The translations under genes and the position numbers were made by a program. This document shows positions 26,021 to 28,110 of a DNA stretch of 33,653 nt, piece by piece (position 1 is the stretch's first letter; every line of letters starts with the position of its first letter). A model generated the notes under the pieces. It searched no databases. It was not told the DNA's origin and worked only from the letters and a program-made list of their open reading frames with translations. Source of the DNA: Leptolyngbya sp. (GTDB lineage: Bacteria > Cyanobacteriota > Cyanobacteriia > Leptolyngbyales > Leptolyngbyaceae); assembly GCA_003249025.1 (NCBI GenBank), contig QBMH01000028.1, positions 1-33,653 on the forward strand. The letters run 5' to 3'.

Positions 26021-27286
26021 TTAGGATAATTCATGGTCGAATTGCGGTGATGAGCGAAACGGTTTGAGTTGCGACACAAGGGAATGAGCAAGCTGTACGG
26101 CTTGTTGCAAAGATTTAGGAGCTTGTTCTAAAAGAATCGGTTGAGGTAATGACAAAAATTGCGATCGCAGAGTGGATACTGATGATTCAGCAAAGCTTGT
26201 TACTAATTGCCCATCTCCTTTATTTCTGGCTAGAACCGACAGGGAGTTTTCAATGGGTTCTATCGCTTCTAGCTGTTCTAAGACAGGTGACAGCAACATT
26301 CGGGCATAGCTTCCATAGGCAACTCCTGAAACCTGTGAAGGCGAACGGGGTCGCGGAGTTAGCACAGTTCCAAACGGGGGCGTTTCAAGATGAGGCATTG
26401 AGCTATCGCGGGAAGAATTAGACGCTAACAGATTGAGCGATCGCAGTTTGGGTACAGTGTAATCGTTTGTTCCTCCTGCTAACTGAACATATCCCGGCAA
26501 CCCTGTCGCTAATACCTTTTGTCCTAGTCGAATGGCTGCTCTGGTTGCGCCATTGCCAATGTCCCCGCTCATCGGACGACCATCGGTTTGCCAAATAAGA
26601 GGGCAGGGCAACGGCGAAACAACATCGTACAGTGCCCAGAGATATTCGCTCAGATTCTCGCCATCAGGACAGCTAATTGCAATTAGCTGAAGCTGGGGCA
26701 ACCAAGGTTTAATTGCTGACCACAAGCGTTGAAAATCTATGAGCCGTCCTACTTGGGTATGAATTTCAATGGCATCAATCCCCATTTCTAGCACTAAGGG
26801 GGCGATCGCTTGAGTCGTTGAAACATAGGAATGGGCTGAAATATGTTGAATGGGACAAATCGGCAGGCAGCGCCCACAGCCATAACAGCGATCTTCAATG
26901 ACACCATGGCTGTTAATAGCACCTGCCGGACAGACCTGTTCACAGGGACGGGCGCAATCTGAAGGACAATTAAGAGGTAAAAATGTTGCTTTGCGAAAGT
27001 GAGGATCTTCACCATCATTTAGGCTAACCATGAGCAATGGCTTTTGAAGCATCGCAGAAGTCGGGTGGGAATTACGGCGACCCATCTCCATCGCCACCTG
27101 AATGGCTTCTTTAGCCGCGATTACCACTGCTGGATCAGCCGCAATGTCAACACAATCGACACCCGCCAACGTATATGCCAACGTCAGGTTGCGAACAGTA
27201 GGAAGATTTTGGAAACTGGCTCCGCAGATTAGTTTAAACCAGTGCCCGTCTCTTAAAGATTGCAGCGGATAGTTTGGTTCACTCAC
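26021..27286 (-). CDS. ldpA: Iron-sulfur protein LdpA (light-dependent period)
   Basis: A 421-residue protein. In Synechococcus elongatus LdpA adjusts circadian period to light through cellular redox state. Two [4Fe-4S] ferredoxin-type motifs are present: Cys107, 111, 115 and 119 (CPSDCARPCEQVCP) and Cys134, 137, 140 and 144 (CYGCGRCLPICP). The N-terminal domain opens GHWFKLICGASFQNLPTVRN, as in the family; the C-terminal 120 residues are variable. The start is GTG, the furthest upstream possible because TAA lies two codons before it, and AAGGG directly abuts it, an unusual spacing. It lies downstream of ndhN, a pairing common in cyanobacteria. Confidence 0.92.
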   Translation of the reverse strand: MSEPNYPLQSLRDGHWFKLICGASFQNLPTVRNLTLAYTLAGVDCVDIAADPAVVIAAKEAIQVAMEMGRRNSHPTSAMLQKPLLMVSLNDGEDPHFRKATFLPLNCPSDCARPCEQVCPAGAINSHGVIEDRCYGCGRCLPICPIQHISAHSYVSTTQAIAPLVLEMGIDAIEIHTQVGRLIDFQRLWSAIKPWLPQLQLIAISCPDGENLSEYLWALYDVVSPLPCPLIWQTDGRPMSGDIGNGATRAAIRLGQKVLATGLPGYVQLAGGTNDYTVPKLRSLNLLASNSSRDSSMPHLETPPFGTVLTPRPRSPSQVSGVAYGSYARMLLSPVLEQLEAIEPIENSLSVLARNKGDGQLVTSFAESSVSTLRSQFLSLPQPILLEQAPKSLQQAVQLAHSLVSQLKPFRSSPQFDHELS

Positions 27287-27333
27287 CCCTTAATGCTAAT
27301 GCTCTATGGGGAAATTTAGGATCTTAAAGCAAA

Positions 27334-27348
27334 AATATTTTAAATATT
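27334..27348. repeat. AT-only palindrome in the ndhN-ldpA spacer
   Basis: AATATTT and AAATATT form a 7-bp inverted repeat around a single T, about 11 bp from the large palindrome at 27359. It may be chance in AT-rich DNA or part of the same element. Confidence 0.3.
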
Positions 27349-27358
27349 GGTTTGGAAT

Positions 27359-27413
27359 GGGTTTCGAGTACGCTCAACCCGCAGACTTTGGGTGTTGAGC
27401 GTACTCGAAACCC
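27359..27413. repeat. Perfect 20-bp palindrome between ndhN and ldpA
   Basis: GGGTTTCGAGTACGCTCAAC at 27359-27378 is exactly repeated in inverted orientation at 27394-27413, with a 15-nt loop inside which CC and GG can extend the stem. It lies in the 196-bp gap between the ndhN stop (27483) and the ldpA start (27286). No T tract follows on either strand within 10 bp, so it is not a standard terminator. It may be an intergenic palindromic repeat of a genome-wide family or an mRNA stability element that separates ndhN from ldpA expression. Confidence 0.75.
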
Positions 27414-27482
27414 TGACTACAATCTTGCATATATTGCAGCGTCTCCCCCTATCAATTACCTTTCACCGTAAAACTGAGCAGG

Positions 27483-27962
27483 CTACGCAACCATCACAGC
27501 TTGCTTTAAAGGTTGCCAACGGAAATAGCGATCGCCGCCAAGCTCCACAGCAATCTTTACTCGTGGTTCCGTAATCGGTAGGGTCGTCAAATATTCAATC
27601 TCCTGACTGGTCAAGATATGTCCCTCAATAATCCACAACAAAAGCCCTTTGGAGTCGGCAGGTAACTTCTCCAACTCATAGGAAATGATTGGCGGAATGT
27701 AATAACGGTAGCCCACCATTGCCCCAGTAACCGTACCGCACTTTTTACCTAAATGAGGGGGACGAACCCCATGAACCTCGGTTAGATAAGCAGCCACATC
27801 TCCTAATCCTCGTGCGGTGATCGTAAGAGCATTATACCCAGCAGCACGAATTCGTCGCTGGTAACGTCCTTCAAAACCGCCTTCCAGAGGAACATACAGA
27901 CCCAACGAACCATGTAGTTCTAAATCTCGGATCAACTTTTTGCCAGTTGTAATTAGCGCCAT
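27483..27962 (-). CDS. ndhN: NAD(P)H-quinone oxidoreductase subunit N
   Basis: A 159-residue peripheral subunit specific to the cyanobacterial/chloroplast NDH-1 complex, which carries cyclic electron flow and respiration at the thylakoid. Conserved blocks are MALITTGKKLIRDLELHGSL at the N-terminus, GGFEGRYQRRIRAAGYNAL, GVRPPHLGKKCGTVTGAMVG and the C-terminal LGGDRYFRWQPLKQA. An upstream in-frame TTG would add seven residues, but ATG 27962 matches the family start. Only a weak GAGAG precedes it. Confidence 0.95.
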   Translation of the reverse strand: MALITTGKKLIRDLELHGSLGLYVPLEGGFEGRYQRRIRAAGYNALTITARGLGDVAAYLTEVHGVRPPHLGKKCGTVTGAMVGYRYYIPPIISYELEKLPADSKGLLLWIIEGHILTSQEIEYLTTLPITEPRVKIAVELGGDRYFRWQPLKQAVMVA

Positions 27963-28110
27963 CGATTTCTCTCTAACTATCAAAAGTTGCTAAAACAGGT
28001 ATCCAAAGGCAACACCAATGATACTGCAATGCCTCAATTATTCGCGTATTCCATAGCAACAGTCTCTCATACCTATAAAAAAGCTCCAAGCTGAGATGAA
28101 TAGGAGTTTG

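Follow-up and report, generated by a model that had tools for sequence, protein, structure and literature searches.

The palindrome between ndhN and ldpA

The window, by which we mean the whole 33,653-base stretch of DNA analysed, carries the genes ndhN (27483-27983) and ldpA (26021-27286) on its minus strand, with ndhN as the upstream gene. NdhN was identified by PF11909 (E=3e-70) and LdpA by NF045992 (E=2e-166). The ORF of ndhN is listed with a TTG start, but translation more probably begins at the ATG at 27962. Between the two genes is a 196-bp spacer (27287-27482), which contains an exact inverted repeat. Its left arm, GGGTTTCGAGTACGCTCAAC (27359-27378, plus strand), and its right arm (27394-27413, minus strand) are 20 bp each and are exact reverse complements of one another, and they are separated by a 15-nt loop (27379-27393).

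A sequence-only reading of this DNA had described the palindrome and its setting in a codirectional gene pair in these terms and had judged its length to be beyond chance. The description was confirmed and the judgement was borne out. When loops of 3 to 40 nt were scanned, the palindrome was the longest perfect inverted repeat of the window, and eight mononucleotide-shuffled versions of the window gave longest repeats of 9 to 11 bp. The palindrome folds as single-stranded DNA at -25.6 kcal/mol (z = -10.5) and the RNA of the whole spacer at -66.1 kcal/mol (z = -5.6). Rfam gave no match at the gathering score anywhere in the window. Near the start of the window, a perfect stem of 14 bp closing a loop of 4 nt (77-108) is followed by a T run and resembles an ordinary intrinsic terminator.

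A dispersed repeat family and its MITE-like frames

The palindrome is one member of a patchily distributed family of dispersed palindromic repeats, as the sequence-only reading had suggested among other possibilities. When the 20-mer arm was searched against its own genome (5.46 Mb) with up to three mismatches, it recurred at 25 places, compared with 1 for the reversed control pattern. The looser core TTTCGRSTNCGCTCAA, with at most one mismatch, was found 43 times in the own genome, G000 (control 4), and 32 times in G001, the other genome of the genus that was searched (control 2). Many of the copies are inverted doublets of one REP-like unit of about 22 bp, GGGTTTCGACTNCGCTCAACC, and others consist of one unit, built as GGTGCGTT-TCGACTNCGCTC-AACGCACC. 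The two arms of the window copy are REP-like unit 1 and, inverted, unit 2, and the left arm carries GAGTAC, a variant of the family core TTTCGACTNCGCTCAA. Its loop is of the CCGCAGACTTT subtype, which it has in common with L019 of the own genome and L119-L121 of G001. Open stretches that cross the 12 own doublets examined reach 105 codons at most (76 for the window copy), so by this open-frame test the own doublets look extragenic.

A covariance model built from the 12 own doublets matched 23 of 42 genomes of the taxonomic family, with counts that range from 0 to more than 100 and differ within genera; these counts are minimum values that include both strands of the palindrome and serve as indices, not as copy numbers. 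The same model matched 19 of 194 genomes of a phylum-wide sample. The plasmid records searched for the repeat gave no match. To our knowledge the family has not been described in print. A search for the core motif in a collection of papers that did not include Elhai 2008 on the Nostoc SDRs gave no description of it.

In five related genomes (G010, G012, G034, G036 and G038) the doublet forms the core of an element of about 140 bp with two conserved AGGGAYYTGC-type ends. Twenty-seven such elements were aligned. The TNA triplet was the same at both ends in 14 of the 20 callable elements (the other 7 of the 27 could not be called), where composition predicts 8.2 (p = 0.008). L031, a full element in the own genome, has no counterpart at the corresponding position of G001 (G001:C335), as judged by a BLAST break at query 645-792 in which 148 nt stand against 28 nt in G001. 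At the level of the family, the relatives display the conserved inverted ends, target duplication and insertion polymorphism of MITEs, and the family spreads at least partly by forming the core of MITE-like elements whose ends are of this AGGGAYYTGC type. A parental autonomous transposon was sought with the left end; in the 7 loci read out of 30 retrieved, no transposase with such ends was recognised.

The window copy itself was aligned by the full-element profile over the core alone (positions 39-98 of 150), and no MITE ends were detected in its flanks. It has either lost its ends by decay or is a bare doublet, and no empty site is known for it. Several further loci bear on how core and ends are combined. 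L321 (419 onward) has the MITE ends without the core, L331 and L335 (1501 onward) have MITE ends enclosing a different palindrome, and in L239 and L241 of G015 the core is, on our reading, set in another frame, whose flanks resemble TAGTGGTCTGTCAA. The core is thus a module carried by several miniature elements, and MITE frames and palindromic cores can be exchanged for one another as modules.

Paired changes, covariation and loop inversions

The closest named relative, the uncultured cyanobacterium PMM_0083 (L032, which seems to be the contig G001:C337), encodes an LdpA that is 82% identical and has a hairpin at the same site between ndhN and ldpA. The spacer flanks are alignable on both sides, with 50 of 64 and 60 of 71 positions identical. 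In the sister hairpin the loop and the 3' arm, that is, the 3' half of the hairpin, are tandemly duplicated (about 2847-2930). Two adjacent stem positions of the window (27367-27368) and their pairing partners (27404-27405) have changed on both sides: the pair 27367/27405 is A-T in the window and G-C in L032, and 27368/27404 is G-C in the window and C-G in L032, whichever of the duplicated 3' arms is used. The pair 27365/27407 is also matched in L032, with the nearer duplicate only. Among the remaining pairs of L032 some are broken or wobble, one arm is decayed, and the longest perfect stem is 11 bp. The pair 27368/27404 is C-G in 38 of 39 aligned doublets, the G-C of the window being the sole exception, and a search with at most one mismatch found the GAGTAC core at this locus and at no other in both genomes of the genus. 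For these reasons the paired change would most simply be placed on the branch of the window.

Compensatory changes in orthologous spacers were among the things that the sequence-only reading had proposed to look for. They are present at this one site, but across the family there is little or no covariation beyond that of the controls. Two of the outcomes that the sequence-only reading had named as refuting, arms absent elsewhere and no compensatory variation in relatives, were therefore not observed. In 39 doublets, 5 pairs had changed on both sides and 4.1 did so after shuffling (171 of 500 shuffles), and standard pairs made up 91.3% as against 90.1% in shuffled sets (4 of 500). The covariation score of the same doublets was matched by 4 of 500 shuffles, a figure which the tool itself warns is not a probability, and in the 12 own doublets no covariation measure stands out. 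Family-wide covariation as a sign of selected RNA structure was thus tested and gave little or nothing above controls.

Two arms taken from one doublet are no closer to each other than two taken from different doublets (108 mismatches compared with 107.4 after shuffling, 39 doublets). Rare transversion alleles are present in both arms of one element in three cases, the window copy, L223 and L230, and 209 of 5000 shuffles reach three. Since 19 rare stem alleles are unmatched in the other arm and 3 are matched, homogenisation of the arms is not general. Perfect 20-bp arms were found in 2 of the 39 doublets, one of which is the window copy.

The single-unit copies show a different kind of change. 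Seven of them, all that were available, are common to both genomes of the genus. Three of the seven (L013/L140, L026/L126 and L195/L128) have the 12-nt loop in opposite orientations in the two genomes, with the flanks conserved, and the other four show no inversion. As a control, inverted repeats of 7 bp or more were examined in about 53 kb of orthologous DNA. There were 85, with 2 inversions, both in the repeat family and both among these three singlets; the control is a weak one, as coding and non-coding sequence were not separated for the other 83.

Origin of the window copy and related systems

We consider it probable that the palindrome is a relic copy of a mobile palindromic repeat that was already in place when the two species of the genus diverged and that owes its maintenance mainly to template switching. 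A doublet of two inverted REP-like units would have entered the ndhN-ldpA spacer before the split, presumably by transposition, and the window copy would then have been inherited in place. Template switching during replication of the hairpin would copy one arm onto the other, which may be the chief way in which the arms stay perfect, with some assistance from selection. The same process would invert the loops at other copies of the family. In the transcript, the palindrome would form a very stable stem 3' of ndhN, as an incidental effect. Template switching is, with moderate confidence, the cause that we favour for the perfect stem, since under it a single locus can show paired changes while the family as a whole lacks clear covariation. 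Two reports (PMC8604942, PMC8794818) describe template switching between inverted repeats as homogenising arms and inverting spacers.

The palindrome could instead be a selected RNA element, a stem at the 3' end of the ndhN mRNA that stops 3'-5' exonucleases or sets the processed end, so that ndhN and ldpA are expressed differently. The very stable stem lies closely 3' of ndhN in a spacer whose RNA fold is itself unusually stable, perfect arms are rare among the doublets, and paired changes are seen in the L032 orthologue. According to PMC13289151, the REPs of E. coli stabilise 3' ends and cyanobacteria are without Rho; the same paper also states that in Synechococcus stabilising structures are largely missing at ends without U tracts, which speaks against this explanation. 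So do the short perfect stem of the sister species and the lack of clear covariation in the family. In addition, no such doublet was found at the site beyond the genus: among 80 LdpA loci, 28 of which have ndhN within 1 kb upstream, a recognisable upstream doublet was found in L032 only, and it is present in none of the other 79, including 27 with ndhN directly upstream. Four of these other loci have one weak match each, within three mismatches. We therefore think a selected RNA element rather unlikely. The sequence-only reading had proposed that the palindrome protects ndhN mRNA or uncouples ldpA expression; such a role is possible, and the proposal is weakened because no doublet of the core motif was found upstream of ldpA outside the genus and because covariation in the family is so slight.

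It is highly improbable that the repeat is a true REPIN moved by a RAYT transposase. Like REPINs, the repeat consists of two inverted REP units that form a hairpin, and it is dispersed in multiple copies, patchy in copy number and, by the open-frame test, apparently extragenic. However, the core (with at most two mismatches) was near none of 30 RAYT/Y1 loci, which were examined with flanks of about 1.5 kb where the contig allowed, and the own genome has no RAYT above the cut-off. A linkage to RAYT was therefore rejected, and the repeat is REPIN-like in form and is not shown to be a REPIN. As for IS200-like TnpA as a driver, the own genome has such genes at L112, with no family core beside it, and at L113, with one weak half-motif (within three mismatches). 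In the sister genome, L169 (G001:C264) is a RAYT gene interrupted by an in-frame stop, and no repeat core is nearby. The identity of the repeat as a GTAG/CGTC-tagged REP was considered as well and was dropped: a constant unpaired tag is absent from its ends, and G[N]AG sits inside the stem with a variable second base.

An intrinsic terminator between ndhN and ldpA, or a physical block to transcription there, which a strong hairpin between codirectional genes might suggest, is likewise highly improbable, as no T tract follows the stem on either strand, in agreement with the sequence-only reading, and the terminator scan made no call at the palindrome.

We put forward, tentatively and as rather doubtful, that cyanobacterial REP-like repeats are self-repairing, in that template switching within the hairpin inverts loops and copies arms so often that nearly half of the orthologous singlets flip between sister species. 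On this view neither selection on RNA nor a transposase would be needed for perfect stems or for seemingly compensatory changes. Paired stem changes are usually taken as proof of a functional RNA; here one locus has them in a family with little or no covariation and with inverted loops. The family provides a natural test bed for distinguishing selection from template-switch mutation in bacteria, and it is a warning not to label each hairpin found between genes of cyanobacteria as a regulatory element.

The small dispersed repeats (SDR) of Nostoc are reportedly hairpins of 21-27 nt with compensatory changes, often located inside minitransposons. The repeat described here is likened to them on these general features. 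GTAG/CGTC-tagged REPs of cyanobacteria are palindromic dimers like the present repeat, and some of these dimers are embedded in longer palindromes, as stated by Di Nocera 2013 (PMC3733652); in contrast to them our repeat has no constant tag, and it comes closest to the 'untagged' families set aside in that paper. REPINs, or REP doublets, are inverted doublets of a short palindromic unit that are extragenic, dispersed and hairpin-forming, as here, and show compensatory changes (Bertels and Rainey 2011, PMC3116915); the present repeat differs in that it was not found near any RAYT, has a low copy number and is also nested in MITE frames. MITEs such as Nezha, which is named in PMC3733652, are non-autonomous elements of about 140 bp with inverted ends and a short target duplication, like the family here; the likeness lies in these general features, and the window copy differs in having no detectable ends. 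The template-switch hairpins of PMC8604942 and PMC8794818 are situated in yeast genes and rRNA genes, unlike the dispersed bacterial repeats described here, and resemble this family in the homogenisation of their arms and the inversion of loops or spacers.
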